Virus record (IMG/VR): IMGVR_UViG_3300009176_000003
Location: 1-64,000 of that record
Source: a virus
Strand: one strand, 5' to 3'
Length of the DNA: 64,000 nt
Shown: positions 2,969-45,184 of the stretch, piece by piece
Numbering within the stretch: the stretch's first letter is position 1
Layout of the letters: every line of letters starts with the position of its first letter
Program-made: the position numbers and the translations under genes
The notes under the pieces: generated by a model
Seen by the model: the letters and a program-made list of their open reading frames with translations, nothing else
Told to the model about the DNA's origin: nothing
Database searches by the model: none

Positions 2969-3700
2969 CTAAGGAATGGTTAACTGCGGGTCGGGGACCT
3001 TCTTCATCAGCAGGTTCATAAAAGTGTACTTCATCCCCATCCACTCGACCGGGGCGTTCCTGCAACTGAGCACCGGGCGCTTGAGCAGACGCAAACCGCA
3101 CTCGGTGGCGAAGATCGTCATCTGCATGACCTCGGTGGCGGTGAAGATCTTCACCGGCGCACCGAACGCGGTTTGTCCTTTGGTGTCGACCGGGCTGTGC
3201 CAGTAGTCGAACGAGGTGAACAGGTAGCCGCCATCGCGCAAGACACGTGACATCTCGACGAAGTACTTCTTCCAGTCGACGCCGTGCTCGATCACGCTGA
3301 GACACGCAATAAACGCGAATTTCTCTTTCGGGTAACTTAATCTTTCGATGTCGCAATATTCGTAACGGACTCCCCCCACCGTTGTGGGGGGTCCAGTTTC
3401 ATCGGTGTTGCACCCGGTAAGGTCCTTGAAACCCAGCTTGGCGAGACTGGGCAGGAACGCGCTCGGCGAGTTGGGATCACGGCAAGCACCTGCGTCCAGC
3501 ACCGGATCGCTTGGCTCGATCAGTCGCTCGACATGATGAATCGCCAAATAACTATCCCAGTTTTTCCACTTGTCGGGGTGCAGGGGCAGCCCGCGCCCGG
3601 CGGCGTACAGCTTGGCGATGTCGACCTGCTTGTTATCTTTTAGCGGCGCACAGGTTTGTTCCTTGGCCCACTTGTCCTCATGCGGCGTGTCCATAAACAT
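2969..3700 (-). CDS. Class I SAM-dependent methyltransferase
   Basis: This is a 243-residue protein. Motif I (VLDAGACRD, about residue 68) is the AdoMet-binding loop of a class I methyltransferase. It is followed by CDIERLSYP, then the IACLSVIEHG and EMSRVLRDGGYLFTSFDY segments typical of the Methyltransf_11 type that modifies small molecules or sugars. The ATG at 3700 is chosen for its GGAG site. It overlaps the end of the upstream glycosyltransferase gene by 23 bases, suggesting coupled translation and a joint role, for example methylating a virion glycan. A DNA substrate is unlikely because no target-recognition domain is present. The exact substrate is unknown. Confidence 0.8.
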   Translation of the reverse strand: MFMDTPHEDKWAKEQTCAPLKDNKQVDIAKLYAAGRGLPLHPDKWKNWDSYLAIHHVERLIEPSDPVLDAGACRDPNSPSAFLPSLAKLGFKDLTGCNTDETGPPTTVGGVRYEYCDIERLSYPKEKFAFIACLSVIEHGVDWKKYFVEMSRVLRDGGYLFTSFDYWHSPVDTKGQTAFGAPVKIFTATEVMQMTIFATECGLRLLKRPVLSCRNAPVEWMGMKYTFMNLLMKKVPDPQLTIP

Positions 3701-5744
3701 GTCCCTGCTCCAGCGCGCGGTCGACCTCGACGGCATCGAGCACCCCGATGCGCGCCTCGCTGTCCCGGTACCCGTAGGACACGATCAGCTCGGCCAGGGG
3801 CTTTTCCGGGTGCCAGCACATCCCGGCGCAGAACTCGATCACCCGGTCGTGAAAACAGAACGGCAGGCTCATGCGCGTGACACTCATGTCGCGCCCGTAC
3901 TCGATGAACCGGTGATAGTAGTAGCGCTTGTGCGGCTCGTGCGGCAGCGGGTGCGCGGTGTGCGAAATACCCAGCCAGCCGCCGTGGCCCCACGGGATCA
4001 ATTGAGAAGATCCACTCAGGTTGTCGGTCATGAACGGCACCGGAGTGTCGATGACTGTGCCGCCTTCCCGGTCCACCACGACTCCGGGCCGGTACAGAAA
4101 CAACGGCTCCTGCGCGCAGTCCCACTTGATCGGCGACCAGTTCTTCTCGGTCACGCGCGGCTCGCGCAGCATGCGCTGCAGGTCCGTGTGCTGGTAATAA
4201 TCTTCCCGGTGCTGGTCGTCGTGAATGCGGAACGCCGGCTTCAGCCGGGTCAGCACCTGCTCGCACTGGCCATCGGCGGCGATCTGTCTCACAGTGGCGG
4301 TGCACCACAGGTCATACTTGTGCGAGAATAATCTGACGTCCTCGAAACCGGTGACCATCGGGTACTCGCAGGGCATGTTACCGGGACGGTAGCACTCCCA
4401 CGATTCCAGCGCGGGACCGAGCGGATCGAACCCGAGATTGACCAGGAAATTGCGCGTATCAATCGGGTTCTCGGCGTTCGCTGTGCCATCGGTAGCGGTG
4501 ATGACGTAGCGGCCATGCTCGTCGATCCGGTAGTTCACCGCGCGCACGTTCACGAACACCTTCTGCAGGTGCACCACCACGCTCGGGTTCATCGCGATCA
4601 GCCCGTCCGGCGGCTCGAACGGGGCGTTTCGCCAGCGAAACGACGGACACAGGCTTGCCAGTGGTTGGATGTACCAAAAAATGTTGGCGCGAGCGCATGA
4701 TCGTGCAGTCCAGTAGTCGGTGGGTTTGAGAGATAGCTCGTCGGTGACGCGCATGCCCTTGGCGGCCTTGCCCGGCACGTAGGCCGCCGCAATGGAGATC
4801 TCCTCCTTGACGCCGACCTCGTAAATGTAGTCGTTGACGAACAGCGAGTCATTCGACTTGGGCAGGTGCTCGACGGCCTCCGCGCAGGCCAGCGCCGCCG
4901 GCTGCATGAACGGCTGCTCGCGGTACCAGTTCGCCAGCGTCCACATGGATTCGGCACGGGTCGGCCGGTAGCTGTAGGCGTCGAGCAGCGTGGCGACGAA
5001 CCCGTTGGTGTCGCCGGTGGCCTTGAGCGCGTGCGCCAGGTCTACCTTGGCCTGCCAGACTTCCTCGGCCCAGCCTCCGGCGGCGATGCGTTTCTTGAAC
5101 CAGTCAACAGCAAGGACAGGCTCCCCAGCGTCGCGATAAGACGCAGCAAGATAGTACAGATAACGAGCATTATCCGGCTCATCCTGAAGTGCCTTTTCCA
5201 GGAGCTTGATGTCGCGTTTGAATTTGTCGGGGCGGTTCGACCCATCAGCGTGGTCGATAAAATAAGCCACGTCCTCGGGGATTCGTCCAGCGGTCTGGAC
5301 ATCAAGGTATTCGTGCGTTGGGGATTTATAGTTGCCCTTGGCCTTGACGTTGAGCAGCCGCGCATTGGTGTAGTGCAGCGCGCCGGCATGCTGGTACATC
5401 TCGTAGGCGAGGCCGTCGCGCGGTGCCAGGAACTGGTCGCGGTCCTTGACCACCAGCTCCATGTCGGCGTCCATCAACAGGAAGAACGACGGCTGGTAAT
5501 CCGGAACATGCTTGCGCGCATAGGCTAGCGCGTCATTGCGCGCCTGACCGAAGTCCTCGAACACCCCGTCATAGATCACGCCGGGCACACCGAACTCGCT
5601 GCACACCCGCCCAATGATCTCCTTGGTACGGTCGGTGCTCCCGGTGTCCAGGATCACGAAGGACGTCAGATACGGCAGGGCCGACTTTAGCGCGCGTTCG
5701 ATCCGCTCGCCCTCGTTGCGAACAATCATACTGAGACAGAGCAT
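3678..5744 (-). CDS. Glycosyltransferase family 2 / TPR / GH130-like fusion protein
   Basis: This is a 688-residue protein. Residues 1-180 form a GT-A glycosyltransferase family 2 domain: SMIVRNEGERIERAL, the nucleotide-sugar loop DTGSTDRT (33-40) and the metal-binding DAD at 92-94. Residues about 185-290 look like TPR helices. Residues about 300-680 resemble a GH130-type five-bladed propeller: a GFEDVRLF segment, then QLIPWGHGGWLGISH, RYYYHRFIEY and HDRVIEFCAGMCWHP, ending in an LIVSYGYRDSEA strand. Family knowledge says GT2 adds a sugar and GH130 relatives cleave or phosphorolyse mannosides. That both act on a virion or host glycan is inference. A terminator precedes the gene, so it may have its own promoter. 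Confidence 0.8.
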   Translation of the reverse strand: MLCLSMIVRNEGERIERALKSALPYLTSFVILDTGSTDRTKEIIGRVCSEFGVPGVIYDGVFEDFGQARNDALAYARKHVPDYQPSFFLLMDADMELVVKDRDQFLAPRDGLAYEMYQHAGALHYTNARLLNVKAKGNYKSPTHEYLDVQTAGRIPEDVAYFIDHADGSNRPDKFKRDIKLLEKALQDEPDNARYLYYLAASYRDAGEPVLAVDWFKKRIAAGGWAEEVWQAKVDLAHALKATGDTNGFVATLLDAYSYRPTRAESMWTLANWYREQPFMQPAALACAEAVEHLPKSNDSLFVNDYIYEVGVKEEISIAAAYVPGKAAKGMRVTDELSLKPTDYWTARSCARANIFWYIQPLASLCPSFRWRNAPFEPPDGLIAMNPSVVVHLQKVFVNVRAVNYRIDEHGRYVITATDGTANAENPIDTRNFLVNLGFDPLGPALESWECYRPGNMPCEYPMVTGFEDVRLFSHKYDLWCTATVRQIAADGQCEQVLTRLKPAFRIHDDQHREDYYQHTDLQRMLREPRVTEKNWSPIKWDCAQEPLFLYRPGVVVDREGGTVIDTPVPFMTDNLSGSSQLIPWGHGGWLGISHTAHPLPHEPHKRYYYHRFIEYGRDMSVTRMSLPFCFHDRVIEFCAGMCWHPEKPLAELIVSYGYRDSEARIGVLDAVEVDRALEQGHVYGHAA

Positions 5745-27448: not shown

Positions 27449-27544
27449 GTCACGCTGTGGTGGCGTGACGGGTGCGCCGGACCTCCTGTTTCAACCGGCG
27501 CACGGCGGCCGGACGCTGCTTAAGCCTTTCAAGCGTCCGGCCGC
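27449..27544 (+). ncRNA. Structured leader with three stem-loops
   Basis: Three strong hairpins follow one another in the 187-base gap before the MoxR-like gene. The first has 7-base arms, GTCACGC/GCGTGAC (27449-27469). The second has 9-base arms, GTGCGCCGG/CCGGCGCAC (27472-27503). The third has 13-base arms, GCGGCCGGACGCT/AGCGTCCGGCCGC (27505-27544). None is followed by a T tract. No known riboswitch family is recognised. It could be a regulatory 5' leader or a processed small RNA. Confidence 0.55.
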
Positions 27545-27627
27545 TCCCTCTGCCCTCTGAAAGGCTGACACGATGCACCGCTGCGGTCACACCTCTGGCC
27601 GCCTATACAACCAGAAAGGCTATTCTT

Positions 27628-28815
27628 ATGAACTTGCGTACTGCCAAGAAGCACCTGCAGGCCAACATCCTGGCCGGCAATGCCACGATACTCATATCCG
27701 ACCCGGGTGTCGGCAAGACCGACATGATGGACGGCGTCTGCCGCTGGTTCCTCGACTACACCCGTGCCGGCAACCCGAAGGCACGCGTGGGAAAATCCCT
27801 GTTCTTCATGGCCACTCAGTCCCCGATTGGCTTCACCGGGCTGCCGTGGAAAGGGGCGCGCAGCTACATCGACGAGCGCACCGGCCTGCAGCACGACTAC
27901 ACCGTCACCGACCCGGCGATTCCGCAGTGGTACATGGCGCAGGACCTCGTCACCGGCGAGGTGCTGCCTGCGAACATGTTCGACAAGGTGGTGCTGGTGA
28001 TCGAGGAGTGGGGACAGGGCTCGGCCGAGACCAAAAGGGCGGGTGCCGAGGTATTGCGTGCCGGGGGGACTCCCCCCTGGTATCTGCCGGAAGGCTCGCC
28101 GCGCATTGCGCTCAGCAACCACGACACGCGTGACGGCGTCACCAAGGAGATGGGCTTCCTGATCAACCGCGCCAACCGCGTGCATATCGTCGGCGATGCC
28201 AAGATCTGGCACGACGACTTTGCCGACCACCCCTACCAGTGGCAGGGACGCACCTGGCAGATGCTCGGCGTGAGCAAGATGTGGGGGCTGCGCAACCCCG
28301 CGATACTGTTCGAGCCGCGCCCCGACAAGGAAGGCCCGTGGTGCACCGCCCGCTCGTTCACCGCACAGGACCGCTACGTGCAGACGGTCACCGAGCTGAA
28401 CGACGGCGAGATCCCGCTCAACGACCCCGGGTTCCGCGAGACCTGCGCGGGCTACACCGGCATGAGCGCAGCGCAGAGCTTCCTCTCGATGCTGCAGTTC
28501 GCGCTGGAGCTGCCGTCCTACGAGAGCATCGTGAAGGACCCGATGGGCACGCCGGTGCCTACAAAAGCCGACCTGCAGATGCTCTTGTCATACGAGCTGG
28601 CCGGCCGCTGCGAGCGCAACGACCTGGCCAACGTCCTCAAGTTCATGGATAAGCGCGACGCCGACGGCAAGGGCATGCCGAAGGACGTGAACATCACGTT
28701 CGTCAGCACGTTGCTGCGCAGGGACTATGACCTGCTCAACGAGCCGGCCATGGAGGCGTGGGTCTCTCGTAATGCTAATCTTGTGGGTGTTATTGGTAAG
28801 TTAGCCCGTAATTAA
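27628..28815 (+). CDS. MoxR-like AAA+ ATPase
   Basis: This 395-residue protein starts at MNLRTAKKHLQAN after CCAGAAAGG. Walker A is SDPGVGKT (24-31). Walker B is the VVLVIEEWGQ segment near residue 125, and IALSNHDTRDGV follows as sensor 1. The pore-loop region PIGFTGLPW is typical of MoxR. MoxR ATPases work with von Willebrand A partners as remodelling chaperones. The matching VWA/metallopeptidase gene lies two small genes downstream. In a phage the target is unknown; candidates are host or virion metalloproteins. A structured leader precedes the gene. Confidence 0.82.
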   Translation: MNLRTAKKHLQANILAGNATILISDPGVGKTDMMDGVCRWFLDYTRAGNPKARVGKSLFFMATQSPIGFTGLPWKGARSYIDERTGLQHDYTVTDPAIPQWYMAQDLVTGEVLPANMFDKVVLVIEEWGQGSAETKRAGAEVLRAGGTPPWYLPEGSPRIALSNHDTRDGVTKEMGFLINRANRVHIVGDAKIWHDDFADHPYQWQGRTWQMLGVSKMWGLRNPAILFEPRPDKEGPWCTARSFTAQDRYVQTVTELNDGEIPLNDPGFRETCAGYTGMSAAQSFLSMLQFALELPSYESIVKDPMGTPVPTKADLQMLLSYELAGRCERNDLANVLKFMDKRDADGKGMPKDVNITFVSTLLRRDYDLLNEPAMEAWVSRNANLVGVIGKLARN

Positions 28816-28883
28816 CCGCGACGGGGTGTTACCGCGACGGTGACACCCCCACTCCCCACAACACCAACACAAGGACTCCCCAC

Positions 28884-29183
28884 ATGAATCGCAAATGGGT
28901 GATCGAGGTCGTCGCCGACATGCGCGACAAGGGCAAGATCGACACCATCACCAAGCTGGTATGCCGGCAGGCCGCGCATCTGCAGGCTGCCGTGTATCTC
29001 ATTGCCGACGAGCAGAAGCCGCAGGTCGCCGCTTATTCCGACGACTTCTTTGCCGGGCGCAGCGAGCTGGCGCTGATGATCGAGAATGACAGCTATCCGG
29101 AGGCTGCGGTCACTGCCGAGCCCCCTGCCGATAGCGACGACGAGATAAGCGACGAGCTGATGGACGCATTCACAAAAAAGTAG
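28884..29183 (+). CDS. Small protein in the MoxR/VWA cassette
   Basis: This 99-residue protein, MNRKWVIEVVADMRDKGKIDT onwards, is mostly helical with an acidic C-terminal tail (DSDDEISDELMDAFTKK). It lies between the MoxR-like ATPase and its VWA partner. A palindrome copy (28829-28843) sits in the gap before it. It may be an adaptor for the pair, by position only. Confidence 0.6.
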   Translation: MNRKWVIEVVADMRDKGKIDTITKLVCRQAAHLQAAVYLIADEQKPQVAAYSDDFFAGRSELALMIENDSYPEAAVTAEPPADSDDEISDELMDAFTKK

Positions 29184-29209
29184 CCGGGGACAGTGACTGC
29201 ACCAGGCGC

Positions 29210-29449
29210 ATGCACTGTCCCCCCGGCAAATGCCTGGCCGAGATCGTCTACCTCACTGCCGCCAGCGAGCGTGCCGAGGTCGTGCTCTGGCAGGGCCCCG
29301 GCACGCTCTGCAGCAAGGTCAACAGCGTGCAGTGGAAGCAATTCTACAACTGGAAAAAGGACTGGTTCGATGCAGTTAGCAAGCACTTCCCCCAGTACTG
29401 CTGCAAACGATGGAAGCAGCGGGCTTTCGACCGCCGCCATAACCGCTGA
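29210..29449 (+). CDS. Small Cys-containing protein in the MoxR/VWA cassette
   Basis: This 79-residue protein, MHCPPGKCLAEIVYLTAASER onwards, has a plausible alpha/beta start and an aromatic basic C-terminus (WKQFYNWKKDWFDAV). It is preferred here over a long upstream extension of the VWA gene because that extension is Ser/Arg-rich shadow. It overlaps the VWA start by 80 bases. No family is known. Confidence 0.55.
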   Translation: MHCPPGKCLAEIVYLTAASERAEVVLWQGPGTLCSKVNSVQWKQFYNWKKDWFDAVSKHFPQYCCKRWKQRAFDRRHNR

Positions 29450-30758
29450 GCACGACCGTAAATGGCAGGACACCGCTGCGATGATGCAGTGGACTGCCCC
29501 CGGGTTCGTGCATCTCCTGTACAAGCTACTCAATGCCCAGAACAATCTGGACGAGAAGGGCTATGTCGCGGTGCACTCGCGCGACGTGCCCATCGCGGCA
29601 ACCGACGGCAAGAACGTGATTATTAACCCGGACACTTATTACAAGCTCGCCCTGCCGCAGCGCGTGTATGTCTTGGGCCACGAGATCGTGCACAACATGT
29701 TCGGCGACGTTGAGTTGCTGCACGCGTGCCACGAGAGCGGCACCGTCACCATGCCGGACGGGCGCAAGATCCCGTTCGACGAGGAGGAGATGCAGCTGGC
29801 GATGGACGCCAGGATCAACGCGTTGCTCGACGAGAGCCACATCGGGTCGCGGCCCGACATCGGCTGGTTCGACAAGGAGGTCAAGGCCGCGGACAGCGTC
29901 TACCCGATCTACGAGCGCTACGTGAAAGCCAAGGCGAAAAAGCCGCCGGGCGACCAGCCCGGTAACCGTCCCGGTAACAAGCCCGGCACGTCGCCCCAGC
30001 CCAACGGCAACCCGGGTGGCGGCTTCGATAAATTGCTCAAGCCCGGCGCAGCCACGGGCCAGGCCCCGCAGGACGCAGTCTCCGAGCGTGACCCGCAGCA
30101 GTGGGCGGTCGAGATCCAGACCGCCAAGACGCTGGAGAGCCTGCGCCAGCAGGGCGACCTGCCGGCCGGCCTGGAGAAGCTGTTCAAGCAATTACTGGAG
30201 CCGGAGATCTCGTGGCTCGACCACATCGAGACGCTGGTCATGCGCCAGGTCGGCGACGGGTCCATCGACTGGACCCAGCCGCACCCGTACTGGGGCGCAT
30301 ATGACTTCTATGTGCCGAACGAGTCCGGCACCGGTGCCGGGTGGATCGTGGTGTGGGGGGACACTTCCGGCAGCGTGTTCAGCGACGGCGTGCAGGCGCG
30401 CAACATCGCCGAGCTGGCTGGACTGATGGAGCAGGTCAACCCCGCACGACTGACGCTGATCTGGTGCGATGCCGGGATACAAAAAGGCAGCGTGATCGAG
30501 CTGCAGGACCCCAGCGAGTTGCGCGACGCCAAGCCGGTGGGCGGCGGCGGCACCAGCTACAAGCCGGTGCTCGACTGGATCGCCAAGAACAATCGTGGGG
30601 AGTCCCCCGATCTGTTCCTGGCCTTCACCGACGGCTACGTGACGTTCGCCAAGGAGCACCCGTTCCCCACCATCTGGTGCAGCAGCACCAAGAAGGGCGA
30701 GGTGAAGTACCCGTTTGGCCAAGTCGTCTACATCAACGACCTCAAGAAGGGCGCATAA
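29370..30758 (+). CDS. Metallopeptidase-like / VWA protein (DUF2201-like)
   Basis: This 462-residue protein starts at MQLASTSPSTAANDG after AAAAGGA. Residues 97-150 carry a zinc-peptidase motif, HEIVH (104-108), with a likely third ligand in LAMDARIN (Asp146). A Gly/Pro/Asn-rich linker spans 190-230. Residues about 325-425 form a von Willebrand A-like domain with MIDAS residues DTSGS (331-335), Thr395 and Asp421. This two-part layout matches DUF2201-type proteins, which usually pair with MoxR ATPases, as here. Protease activity is possible but unproven. Confidence 0.8.
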   Translation: MQLASTSPSTAANDGSSGLSTAAITAEHDRKWQDTAAMMQWTAPGFVHLLYKLLNAQNNLDEKGYVAVHSRDVPIAATDGKNVIINPDTYYKLALPQRVYVLGHEIVHNMFGDVELLHACHESGTVTMPDGRKIPFDEEEMQLAMDARINALLDESHIGSRPDIGWFDKEVKAADSVYPIYERYVKAKAKKPPGDQPGNRPGNKPGTSPQPNGNPGGGFDKLLKPGAATGQAPQDAVSERDPQQWAVEIQTAKTLESLRQQGDLPAGLEKLFKQLLEPEISWLDHIETLVMRQVGDGSIDWTQPHPYWGAYDFYVPNESGTGAGWIVVWGDTSGSVFSDGVQARNIAELAGLMEQVNPARLTLIWCDAGIQKGSVIELQDPSELRDAKPVGGGGTSYKPVLDWIAKNNRGESPDLFLAFTDGYVTFAKEHPFPTIWCSSTKKGEVKYPFGQVVYINDLKKGA

Positions 30759-41085: not shown

Positions 41086-41099
41086 GGGCGATCAGCGTG

Positions 41100-44000
41100 A
41101 TGTTGCCCGCCGACTTCATGTCGCGTGTGGTTGACTGGCCGGGGGACGACAACGCCCCCGGCTGGGTCAACGTGCACTGGCTGAGCCCCAAGGGCCCCGG
41201 CATGCGCGGGCGTCCGTTCAAGCACCTGCACGACTTCATGAGCTTCGTGCAGTACGCCGCCAACAAGCCGGGAATATTCAAGGATATTTTCTTCTGTACC
41301 TCGACCCAGAAAGACCACGGCAAGGAGTTCCGCGGTAGATACACGGCGCACCGCCACCACTCCAAGGCGCTGTGGCACAAGGCGTTATTCCTCGACGTGG
41401 ACATCAAGCCCGAGGGCTACGCCACGCTGAAAGAGGCGCTGCAGGCGGTGCACGCGTTCCGCCTGAAAGCCGGCCTGCCACCCCCGTCCGCCATCGTGCT
41501 GACCGGGGGAGGAATTCATGTATACTGGATCAGTCTCAAGCCGCTCACCACCGAGCAGTGGCGTCCCTACGCCGAGGGCCTGAAAGCCGAAGTGCTATCA
41601 TTTGGCTTGAAGTGCGACGTCGGCGTGATCGCCGATGCCGCGCGTATCCTGCGCGTGCCGGGGACCGTCAACAACAAGCAGGACAAGCCGCGACCGGTGC
41701 GCCTGGCGCATCTGGGCGCGAGTTATGATTTTAGTGATGTCGCGTTTGCCGGCCTGGCCGCAAAGGCCCCTGTCGCCCCGGTGCAAAAAGTTCCGGTTAC
41801 CGCGGCGGCAACATTTGCAATTCCGCCAGAGTTCGCCGCCGGGCCGGCAAAAATCCTCGCGCATCTCGATCCCCTGGCGGGCGGGTTCTCCGGGATTGGC
41901 GCACGCGATAACGACTTGCCCTTGGACGCCACCGAGATCTTCAAGGGCTGCAACCATTTTCGCGACAGCGTCAAGACCGGCGGAAAATCCCAGTCGCAGA
42001 GCCTGTGGCACCTCAACGCGCTGGCCTGCACGTGGCTGGACAATGGGAGAACGATCTTTCACGGGATGGCCAGGGGCTACCGGACCTACACCTACGACGA
42101 GTCGGACAAGATGTTCGACCGCAAGGTCAAGGACCGTGCCCAGTACCCCGACCTGGGCTGGCCGCTGTGCGAGACGCTGGAGAGCGAGGGGGCCAAGTGT
42201 GCAGGGTGTCCCTACTACGGCAAACTAAAATCCCCGCTCAGTCTGGCGGAACGGGTGTATGTCCCGCCCCCGCCGATGCCGCCACCGCCGCCCGAGCTGG
42301 AGCTGCCGGAGGAGTACACCGTCAACGAAAAAGGTTTCATCTGCGAGATCGTCGAGAAGGAAGACCGTCACGGTAACAGCCGGACCGAGTACGTGCCGCT
42401 GTTCTGGAGCAAATTGCGCGCGTTCAACGCGCAGGGCGGCAACCGGCAGCTCCAGTTTCAGACTTCTCTCGATCTCGACAAATGGGGTACAGTCGAGATC
42501 AACGAAGCGACCGACCTGATCAACGAAACCACCATCGTGAAAGCGCTGCGTCAGCATGGCGTCAAACCCAACACCAGCATCTCGGCCAAGAGGATTATCA
42601 CGTTTGTGACCAGCTACATGGCCAAGCTGGACGCCTCCAAGGCACGCCAAAACACCGTGCCGTTCGGCTGGCTGCGCGAAACCGGCGAGATGCCGGTGGG
42701 CTTTGCCTACGGTGGAAGGGTCATTCTCCAGAACAACACCGAGCGCCAGGCCGGCTACTCCGACAAGCAGCTGGAGAAATTCTATACCCCGACAGGCGAT
42801 CCCGAGCCGTGGTGGAAACTGCTGCGCATTATTACCGCGCGGCACCACCCGGCCCTGGAGTGCATCGTGGCATCCAGCTTTGCCGCCCCCCTGAGTTATG
42901 CGACCGGGCTGTACAACGGGATTATCTGTTCCTGGTCGCCGGGAGGGGGTGCCCACAAGAGCACCTCCATGCAGGTCGGTGCCGCGGTGTGGGGCTGTCC
43001 CAAGCTCACCAAGGAACACCCGGGTGCCTCGCACAAGGGCATCATCCACAAGATGGGGATGATAAAAAACCTCCCGGTGTACTGGGACGAGATTAACTCC
43101 CCGGAACTCATGAAGGGCGTGGCCAGTATCCTCGGCAACAGCACGCAGGGGTCCGGCGGGAGCAAACTGACCAGCGGGCGCGATTTTCACGTTTACGACG
43201 AGTGGCAGACGCTGATGCAGGTGGGCGCGAACTTGTCGCTGGTCGAGCACATCATCAACAACAGGACCGGCACCGACGCGCAGCTGCAGCGCGTGTTCGA
43301 GTTCCAGGTAGAGAAACGCATCGATACCCAGAAGCACTACAATACCGACAGGCTGTCCAACGCGCTCGACCACAACTACGGCCACGTCGGGGTACGCTAC
43401 AGCCAGCTGCTCGGCACCAACGTCGAGCGCATCCACAAGCAGATGACTGGCGTGTTAGAGCGGTTCTCCAACGAGGTGAGCATCCGCTCGGAGGAGCGCT
43501 TCCGCTGCGCCGTCGCCGCGACGGTCTACATGGGTGCGGTGCTGGCCAACGAGATCGGCTGCGACTTCAACGTCAACGAGATGTGGAGCTTTCTCAAGGA
43601 CGAGTTCCTCAAGCAGCGCCACAAGATCGACACCGCCAACGTGGTCGCCGGCACTGGCGAGAACTCGGCCAACTGGACCAGCCATTTCCTCAAGACCAAC
43701 GCCGACAACGCGGTGTGGATCGACACCATGCCGTCGCGCCGTCCGGGCCAGCCGCCCGGTATCGTGTGGGTCGCGGGCGTAAACCATCTGCGGCCACGGC
43801 CGATCCATGTGCGGCTGTCGATATCCGACCGTGTCATTGATATTTCCCGCACCAAGTTCTTTGAATGGCTTGTGCTGAAAGAGGTCATACCGTCATCGGT
43901 GCTCACTGGCCTCGTGCGGCACTTCGGCGCGACCGAGCCTGGTCGTCTCAACCTAGCGGCTGGGGCAGGGGTGCTGGGTGGCGGACGGGAGCCCGTCATT

Positions 44001-44144
44001 CGCATCCCTGTGCCGGACGATTCGCCGTTCCTGAGCGACCTCTATGCCCATACGCCGCCGGACCAGCGTCCCATGACGACGCCGACAACATCGCTAAGCG
44101 GCGCTACCGCGACGGTAATTTCCATCGACAAGGCACGACCCTGA
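41100..44144 (+). CDS. Primase-helicase (AEP-like plus DUF927-like)
   Basis: This 1014-residue protein starts at ATG 41100 after AAGGGCG; GTG 41097 is the alternative. The N-terminal archaeo-eukaryotic primase-like part shows FLDVD (Asp99, Asp101), GGGIHVYW (136-143) and ARILRVPGT (181-189). The C-terminal half matches DUF927-type helicases: SWSPGGGAHKSTS, then VYWDEIN with the Walker B Asp-Glu (about 662) and GGSKLTSGRDFH. The P-loop reads GGGAHKST (615-622), His replacing the usual Gly before Lys. It should prime and unwind at the fork. Palindrome copies lie at 41797 and 44104. Confidence 0.82.
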   Translation: MLPADFMSRVVDWPGDDNAPGWVNVHWLSPKGPGMRGRPFKHLHDFMSFVQYAANKPGIFKDIFFCTSTQKDHGKEFRGRYTAHRHHSKALWHKALFLDVDIKPEGYATLKEALQAVHAFRLKAGLPPPSAIVLTGGGIHVYWISLKPLTTEQWRPYAEGLKAEVLSFGLKCDVGVIADAARILRVPGTVNNKQDKPRPVRLAHLGASYDFSDVAFAGLAAKAPVAPVQKVPVTAAATFAIPPEFAAGPAKILAHLDPLAGGFSGIGARDNDLPLDATEIFKGCNHFRDSVKTGGKSQSQSLWHLNALACTWLDNGRTIFHGMARGYRTYTYDESDKMFDRKVKDRAQYPDLGWPLCETLESEGAKCAGCPYYGKLKSPLSLAERVYVPPPPMPPPPPELELPEEYTVNEKGFICEIVEKEDRHGNSRTEYVPLFWSKLRAFNAQGGNRQLQFQTSLDLDKWGTVEINEATDLINETTIVKALRQHGVKPNTSISAKRIITFVTSYMAKLDASKARQNTVPFGWLRETGEMPVGFAYGGRVILQNNTERQAGYSDKQLEKFYTPTGDPEPWWKLLRIITARHHPALECIVASSFAAPLSYATGLYNGIICSWSPGGGAHKSTSMQVGAAVWGCPKLTKEHPGASHKGIIHKMGMIKNLPVYWDEINSPELMKGVASILGNSTQGSGGSKLTSGRDFHVYDEWQTLMQVGANLSLVEHIINNRTGTDAQLQRVFEFQVEKRIDTQKHYNTDRLSNALDHNYGHVGVRYSQLLGTNVERIHKQMTGVLERFSNEVSIRSEERFRCAVAATVYMGAVLANEIGCDFNVNEMWSFLKDEFLKQRHKIDTANVVAGTGENSANWTSHFLKTNADNAVWIDTMPSRRPGQPPGIVWVAGVNHLRPRPIHVRLSISDRVIDISRTKFFEWLVLKEVIPSSVLTGLVRHFGATEPGRLNLAAGAGVLGGGREPVIRIPVPDDSPFLSDLYAHTPPDQRPMTTPTTSLSGATATVISIDKARP

Positions 44145-44158
44145 AGGAGGGTTTAACA

Positions 44159-44893
44159 ATGAAGAAGCTACTTGCGACAGTTGCCGTGCTCGCCGCACTT
44201 GCGACTCCCGCCTACGCCGATGTCATTCTTGGCGGCCAGACCTGGACCGGCAACGGCACCGTCCTCGACATCGCCGCTGTCGTCCCGGGCGGCAACCAGC
44301 CGCGCAACATCCCGTGTCTCATTTGCGGCGAGAACCAGCCGCAACAGATAGCCGGGTTTGGCTACAACGACTTCGGCAACTCCGGCAACCAGACCACCAT
44401 CAACGCCTTCTCGTCCGGCATTGTGCGCGACCGTCTGGCCGACGACACCATCGGCACCGGCTACACCCTTGGTGCCGGGAGCGTTTTCCTCGCGGCACTC
44501 GCCGGTCGTACCGACTTTGCGGTCGGCGTCGACGTCAACGATACCGGCGTGGCGCAGACGCTGGAGAGCTTCTGGTTCCTCAACCTGACGCAGCACACGG
44601 TCCTCGCCGTGCTCTCGCCCGGTCCGGGCGGAATAGCGATCCCCTCGCTCAACAACGGCACCGGCTTTCCCGACTACACCATCAGCGGTTTCGACCTGAA
44701 CCGGGGCGACATCCGTCCGGGCGACCAGATTATTTTCTTTGCGCGCATCACGGGTGCGAACGACGGTCCCGACTCGTTCTTCTTAGTGCCGCAGGCCGTC
44801 CCCGGCCCGGTCCTCGGTGCTGGACTACCCGGTCTGGCGTTCGTGCTTGGCTGCCTCGCCTACTGGCGTCAACGCCGGCGCAACACCATATAA
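44159..44893 (+). CDS. Secreted protein with PEP-CTERM-like C-terminus
   Basis: This 244-residue protein has a strong AAGGAGG site. Residues 1-21 (MKKLLATVAVLAALATPAYA) are a clear signal peptide. The mature part is a Gly/Asn/Thr-rich beta domain (ILGGQTWTGNGTVLDIAAV). The C-terminal 30 residues read VPGPVLGAGLPGL, a hydrophobic span, then WRQRRR: the tripartite PEP-CTERM-like sorting signal. In bacteria this signal is processed by exosortase and linked to exopolysaccharide. It is unusual in a phage, and no exosortase is present here, so the host enzyme would be needed. It was probably acquired from a host. Confidence 0.8.
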   Translation: MKKLLATVAVLAALATPAYADVILGGQTWTGNGTVLDIAAVVPGGNQPRNIPCLICGENQPQQIAGFGYNDFGNSGNQTTINAFSSGIVRDRLADDTIGTGYTLGAGSVFLAALAGRTDFAVGVDVNDTGVAQTLESFWFLNLTQHTVLAVLSPGPGGIAIPSLNNGTGFPDYTISGFDLNRGDIRPGDQIIFFARITGANDGPDSFFLVPQAVPGPVLGAGLPGLAFVLGCLAYWRQRRRNTI

Positions 44894-44920: not shown

Positions 44921-45184
44921 ATGCAACGCGAGACGATCCTACAGTATTTCGAGTACAAGCACCTGAAGCCAGAGCTGCAGAACCACAGCAAGTCGTTCTG
45001 GGCCCTGGCGCATCACGTCTGCAACACCATCCCCGAGAGCCCGGAGCGCACCATTGCGCTGCGAAAACTCTTGGAGGCCAAGGACGCGGCAGTGCGTGCC
45101 GCGCTCTACGACATCACCAAGGGCGATGTGCAGGAAGTGCTGACCGAGCAGGACCAGCGGCCTGCCGTGCGCGGCGTAGCCTAG
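44921..45184 (+). CDS. Acb2/Tad1 hairpin-like protein (candidate anti-defence sponge)
   Basis: This is an 87-residue, fully helical protein. FEYKHLKPELQNHSKSFWALA followed by ERTIALRKLLEAKDAAVRAAL matches my recollection of the helical-hairpin family to which the phage cyclic-nucleotide sponges Acb2 and Tad1 belong. Those proteins capture CBASS or Thoeris signalling molecules. It is the last gene of the early operon, the usual place for accessory anti-defence genes. Ligand binding cannot be judged from sequence alone. A terminator follows inside the antisense gene. Confidence 0.55.
   Translation: MQRETILQYFEYKHLKPELQNHSKSFWALAHHVCNTIPESPERTIALRKLLEAKDAAVRAALYDITKGDVQEVLTEQDQRPAVRGVA

Follow-up and report, generated by a model that had tools for sequence, protein, structure and literature searches.

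A phage cargo gene family encoding putative surface proteins with exchangeable exosortase-type sorting tails

We describe a moron-like phage cargo gene encoding what is probably a surface protein sorted by the exosortase of the host, with the displayed body most likely changing the coat of the infected cell. The window, i.e. the whole stretch of 64,000 nucleotides that was analysed, is part of a 68,833-bp IMG/VR virus record with terminase, portal/adaptor, polymerase and helicase genes. Sequence comparison shows the identity of the tail, the exchange of tails, the co-occurrence of tail and exosortase, the lack of a detected phage exosortase and the PEP-CTERM-type cellular relatives; expression, processing, location, host and effect are inferred. 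It is important to note what speaks against this reading: it has no experiment behind it, none of the curated sorting models recognises the window protein, the closest isolated phages are phages of Rhizobium, and the Bradyrhizobium enzyme described below is a divergent one that reaches 25 bits for a cut-off of 23.

The gene and its surroundings comprise the following features:

41097–44144 (+), primase/helicase gene directly upstream in the same operon (phrog_25314, phrog_8841)
44144–44151 (+), ribosome-binding site AAGGAGGG, 7 nt ahead of the ATG, read from the sequence
44159–44893 (+), gene of the secreted cargo protein, 244 aa with ATG start, a putative exosortase-type substrate
44159–44218 (+), signal peptide of 20 aa ending A-Y-A, by sequence inspection, with similar N-termini in relatives with complete starts
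44219–44782 (+), conserved beta-rich body ending NDGPDSFF, from family conservation and a model
44798–44890 (+), putative sorting tail of VPGP type, VPGPVLGAGLPGL followed by a hydrophobic stretch and RQRRR, from the match to bacterial tails
44921–45184 (+), 87-aa ORF downstream of the cargo gene, with a 55% identical stretch in phage L074
45233–45268 (+), strong terminator-like hairpin of 15 pairs at the operon end

The cargo gene begins 14 bp past the primase/helicase stop. The original prediction had described a likely expressed gene with a strong ribosome-binding site at the end of the replication operon, a clean N-terminal signal peptide and a phage without its own exosortase. The reading frame and its strong ribosome-binding site are real, and the match to bacterial tails and the low dN/dS of the body, both given below, speak against a chance resemblance. 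The N-terminus, MKKLLATVAVLAALATPAYA followed by D, has a basic n-region, a hydrophobic core and A-Y-A, in agreement with a signal peptide, although this was judged by inspection and not with a dedicated predictor. The position was only partly right: the gene does share the operon with primase/helicase, but it is not the last ORF, as the 87-aa ORF and the hairpin come after it. A search for an exosortase was negative both for the 68.8-kb record and for 17 related phage records, although records of this kind may be fragments. In L074 about 1.6 kb separate the stretch resembling the 87-aa ORF from the family gene downstream of it; that phage shares little else with the window, and the ORF is a possible second cargo gene.

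Exosortase substrates carry a tripartite tail of this kind, have genes near exopolysaccharide loci and help to bind exopolysaccharide to the cell (PMC12188702; PMC9850573). A secretion signal and a tail made of a Pro motif, a hydrophobic helix and a basic cluster are both present in the window protein. Its full C-terminal tail is VPGPVLGAGLPGLAFVLGCLAYWRQRRRNTI, in the layout VPGP..GAGLPGL, hydrophobic stretch, RRR, with the helix predicted at residues 223–241. Curated PEP-CTERM models do not match the protein. More specifically, TIGR02595 and PF07589 give nothing at E 10, NF035944 (PEPxxWA-CTERM) is not met, and no matching family was found in Pfam, NCBIfam or PHROGs. When the 1,108 frames of the window were searched with a profile made solely from 13 bacterial tails, this ORF was found at E 2e-11, the next best frame being at 0.17. 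The tail as a real exosortase-type signal is supported by five sequence tests despite failing the curated models.

Pattern scans of IMG/VR each returned about 180–200 loci with relatives of the body (183, 182, 197 and 193; 86 with a divergent query), and the body is a member of a large, so far unnamed phage family. The homologues that the original prediction proposed to look for are thus numerous among IMG/VR loci, whereas at the limits used none was found among 50,697 deposited phages (INPHARED) or 72,556 plasmids (PLSDB). Where a relative has a complete start, its N-terminus resembles a signal peptide, and a Shine-Dalgarno-like site precedes nearly all of these starts. Of the distinct bodies, 118 have a complete C-terminus, and every one of these terminates in a Pro motif, a hydrophobic stretch and basic residues, the tail being of VPGP type in 71, VPLPA-like in 28, PEPxxW in 9, PEP-GSL in 9 and of another type in one. 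Several relatives satisfy the models that the window protein fails. Its sister L001 (support 100/97) has a PEPxxWA tail scoring 41.5 bits with NF035944 against a cut-off of 35, which L025 also meets; the TIGR02595 cut-off is met by L060 (22.5 against 16), L071, L001 and L025, and that of TIGR03370 by L052 (27.6 against 25.35). The sorting claim of the original prediction was to fall if the tail failed PEP-CTERM models and the homologues were merely generic anchored proteins. The tail does fail, but homologues that share this body end in signals of the curated PEPxxWA-, PEP- and VPLPA-CTERM kinds and are not generic, so that the claim stands. The window protein is a VPGP-type variant, not a strict TIGR02595/PF07589 member, in a family whose other members are.

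Tail types have changed repeatedly on this body. At least 12 switches between VPGP and another type fall on supported branches of a body-only tree, which was a quick one with SH-aLRT support only; a more careful tree of 69 bodies requires at least six tail-type switches. In L024 (1157–1933) and L025 (5001–5777) a VPGP stub is followed at once by a full PEPATW tail (AVPGPTVGAVPEPATWAMM) of PEPxxWA type, and this hybrid looks like a recombination junction, as a recombination product would. The body itself has 33 invariant columns across 65 members, and its dN/dS of 0.03–0.22 indicates purifying selection. The tail appears to act as an exchangeable address label that has been traded repeatedly among phages, on a body that remains under constraint. 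This suggests that many uncultured soil phages place one of their own proteins in the coat of the bacterium that they infect.

The VPGP tail also occurs in bacteria. In a scan of 84,980 genomes the motif VPGPxxGAG[LF]PG[LF] occurred at 17 loci, and at 13 of them it forms the C-terminal tail of a protein. Nearly all of these tails come from Bradyrhizobium or other alphaproteobacterial MAGs; they sit on unrelated proteins, most of which are recognisably secreted. Phage and bacterial tails do not differ at the Pro/Gly motif positions, and the tails of L039 (phage) and L094 (Bradyrhizobium) are 84% identical. Bradyrhizobium MAG G003 has more tail matches than any other genome, ten on different proteins. 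Three of these tails lie on an 83-kb contig that starts with an exosortase/archaeosortase-family gene of 28.5 bits with TIGR04178, followed by exopolysaccharide transport and polymerase genes. The Bradyrhizobium enzymes L099 and L100 score 28.5 and 26.2 bits with TIGR04178 in the genome search and 25 and 23 bits as trimmed proteins, the cut-off being 23, and both have the conserved Cys, Arg and His (CSSLANMS, NVTRISLMG, IH..WGD) of the TIGR04178 signature, as expected of family members. An empty PF09721 search of 61 genomes around the Bradyrhizobium MAG had suggested that VPGP hosts lack an exosortase; this was rejected when the enzyme was found by TIGR04178 and then by itself as query. Note that PF09721 does not reach the Bradyrhizobium enzyme.

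Among 196 genomes of the genus the enzyme was found in 23, the tail in 22 and both in 20, where 2.6 would be expected (Fisher p 3.8e-22). The test ignores relatedness of the genomes, and part of the co-occurrence within a single genus reflects common descent. Canonical tails above 50 bits occur in four genomes, exactly the four that have an exosortase above 540 bits, and in several further genomes, e.g. G116, G079, G242 and G199, a tailed protein adjoins the enzyme. Together with the curated tails of the relatives, this co-occurrence supports the proposal that the phage encodes an exosortase-type substrate and borrows the host enzyme. As a separate observation, the divergent exosortase (L099, 206–1093; L100, 1471–2340 on the minus strand; and other genomes), barely above the TIGR04178 cut-off, falls into two subtypes that accompany VPGP tails of strong and of weaker form, and neither subtype has a dedicated model.

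Tails are also shared within phages. A filter for a signal peptide and a tripartite tail, applied to 12,587 frames of the window and the phage loci, kept eight proteins outside the family, all near a family gene:

Second tailed secreted proteins: L014, 4466–4996; L031, 5792–6523; L060, 3344–4102; L061, 5703–6365; L067, 3405–4169; L074, 4171–4935; L405, 2245–3024; L184, 2319–3032 (−)

The tail type equals that of the neighbouring family protein in all eight; seven pairs are independent and agree, for which the permutation chance is 24/5040. The bodies of these second proteins look unrelated to the family, by eye only. The same motif on unrelated proteins of one genome, as expected of a shared sorting tail, is thus found both in G003 and in these phages.

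Only two cellular homologues of the body were found. Peptide patterns found none in 84,980 genomes and a profile search found none in 266 congeneric genomes, whereas a body profile, for which the phages served as positive control, gave two distant relatives, L410 and L411, among 385 genomes from across the class. The tail of L411 is PEP-CTERM and above the cut-off, whereas that of L410 is of VPLPA type and falls short of it; a clear exosortase is present in each of the two genomes (69 and 72 bits). As both cellular homologues are PEP-CTERM/VPLPA-type proteins with an exosortase in the genome, bacterial exosortase substrates are the most likely ancestors of the phage family. PepA, a flocculation-associated PEP-CTERM protein (NF033554; PMC9850573), is likewise a secreted exosortase-type substrate, and weak profile matches of L001, L410 and L411 running into the body had suggested kinship with it. 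PepA is a host protein and not a phage one, and no body matches the NF033554 model once the tails are removed, so that kinship of the bodies was rejected and the likeness comes mostly from the tail.

We propose that phages acquired the gene from a bacterial exosortase substrate. The cargo protein would be made along with the replication genes, the signal peptide would take it out of the cytoplasm, and the host's own exosortase would recognise the C-terminal tail; expression, secretion and processing are all inferences here. The body would then be delivered to the outer surface or the exopolysaccharide coat, again by inference. Relatives with the same body would bear the tail type fitting their presumed host, VPGP for exosortase-bearing Bradyrhizobium-like hosts and PEPxxWA, PEP-GSL or VPLPA elsewhere. 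Most likely the displayed body would change the coat of the infected cell so as to shut out competing phages or to hold exopolysaccharide to the cell. Neither effect, superinfection exclusion or exopolysaccharide change, has direct support. As a tentative conjecture, a widespread guild of soil phages may use exosortase-sorted proteins of its own, in some phages two of them, to build part of the exopolysaccharide coat of the infected cell, adapting to a new host by swapping only the label so that it suits the exosortase there, with the resulting layer excluding competing phages.

What the body does on the surface can be read in another way. The exported body may bind, retain or reorganise exopolysaccharide to the benefit of the phage, for example so that infected cells clump or progeny diffuse more slowly, and not exclude rivals; this is possible, although we consider it rather unlikely. 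Overexpression of a PEP-CTERM protein moves exopolysaccharide from the soluble to the bound form (PMC9850573). The body is predicted to be a beta-rich domain (beta-sandwich model, mean pLDDT 84.5), and several carbohydrate-binding modules are among its weak fold neighbours. However, fold searches with the model gave only middling beta-sandwich matches, none significant (best Z 7.0, below kinship level), sequence search found no relative with a solved structure, and profile searches assigned no enzyme or binding family. Because the matches are only middling, we neither claim nor exclude a fold family.

We cannot exclude that the protein is a decoy, made in excess to occupy the host exosortase so that host proteins are not exported, the exopolysaccharide coat becomes thinner and progeny spread. 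Close resemblance of phage and host tails such as those of L039 and L094 would suit this, as would the control that PEP-CTERM proteins exert over the amount of exopolysaccharide kept bound (PMC9850573). Such a role would not require the body to be conserved, and the strong constraint on it makes the possibility improbable.

It is very unlikely that the tail is a generic inner-membrane anchor with basic residues that undergoes no sorting. A hydrophobic helix followed by arginines is indeed a general stop-transfer design, and the window tail has no curated-model match. A plain anchor, however, needs neither an invariant Pro/Gly motif ahead of the helix nor relatives matching three curated sorting models, and its type would not have to track the presence of an exosortase and the tail of a neighbouring protein.

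The family gene has moved between phages, its neighbours varying by locus between terminase, head protease, portal, endolysin, HNH and integrase genes. A conserved neighbourhood had been expected and was not found across the family loci, and replication genes like those of the window almost never adjoin the family gene. The nearest isolates are Rhizobium phages, e.g. RHph_TM27A, with the same helicase-to-primase order and an unrelated 94-aa gene at the position of the cargo gene. A virion component whose tail has a role in particle assembly or anchors the protein in a membrane of the particle is scarcely credible, since the position of the gene among terminase, head and portal genes in 16–17 loci is outweighed by the signal peptide in members with complete starts, by locations that include replication genes and loci with integrase or endolysin genes, and by the lack of a match to structural PHROGs.

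Phages reach the host envelope through lipoprotein sorting. Phage surface lipoproteins for superinfection exclusion, such as T5 Llp and phi80 Cor, are examples that use signal peptidase II and lipid anchoring. The proteins described here are similar in being phage cargo that would reach the envelope via a host sorting route, but they carry an exosortase tail, which Llp and Cor lack. With PEP-CTERM/exosortase substrates (TIGR02595, PF07589; NF035944 PEPxxWA-CTERM, TIGR03370 VPLPA-CTERM) they share the signal peptide, Pro motif, hydrophobic helix and basic end, models met by same-body relatives, and the tie to exopolysaccharide loci and exosortase genomes. They differ in being a phage family encoded without a detected exosortase, in the unmodelled VPGP-GAGLPGL variant of the window tail and in the swapping of tail types on one body. 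TIGR03118-family proteins with a putative exosortase interaction domain have been noted as gene transfers in hot-spring viral contigs (PMC11003980); these too are viral, but they are another family, given as a list entry only, with no tail exchange or host link studied. Apart from that entry we found no report of phages using the exosortase pathway, and such use appears undescribed in the literature searched; this is weak evidence, as most subscription papers were not covered.

The repeated exchange of tail types within a single family of bodies provides natural evidence that short tails act as enzyme-specific labels and can be interchanged, which is hard to show with bacterial proteins alone. 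The family also offers a natural reporter of how an exosortase treats its substrate. The tail type suggests the exosortase type and is thereby a clue to the host of anonymous soil phages. Our results also point to an unmodelled exosortase signal and a divergent enzyme in Bradyrhizobium.

Two further observations concern the window. Adjacent genes at 27472–30758 match phrog_1297 (phage ATPase family) and phrog_1314, and resemble a MoxR-type ATPase and a metallopeptidase/VWA-like partner despite the PHROG label 'HNH endonuclease'. At 3678–5744 on the minus strand, among structural genes, lies a gene for a 688-aa protein with a glycosyltransferase domain (PHROG moron class), which could also alter the host or virion surface.
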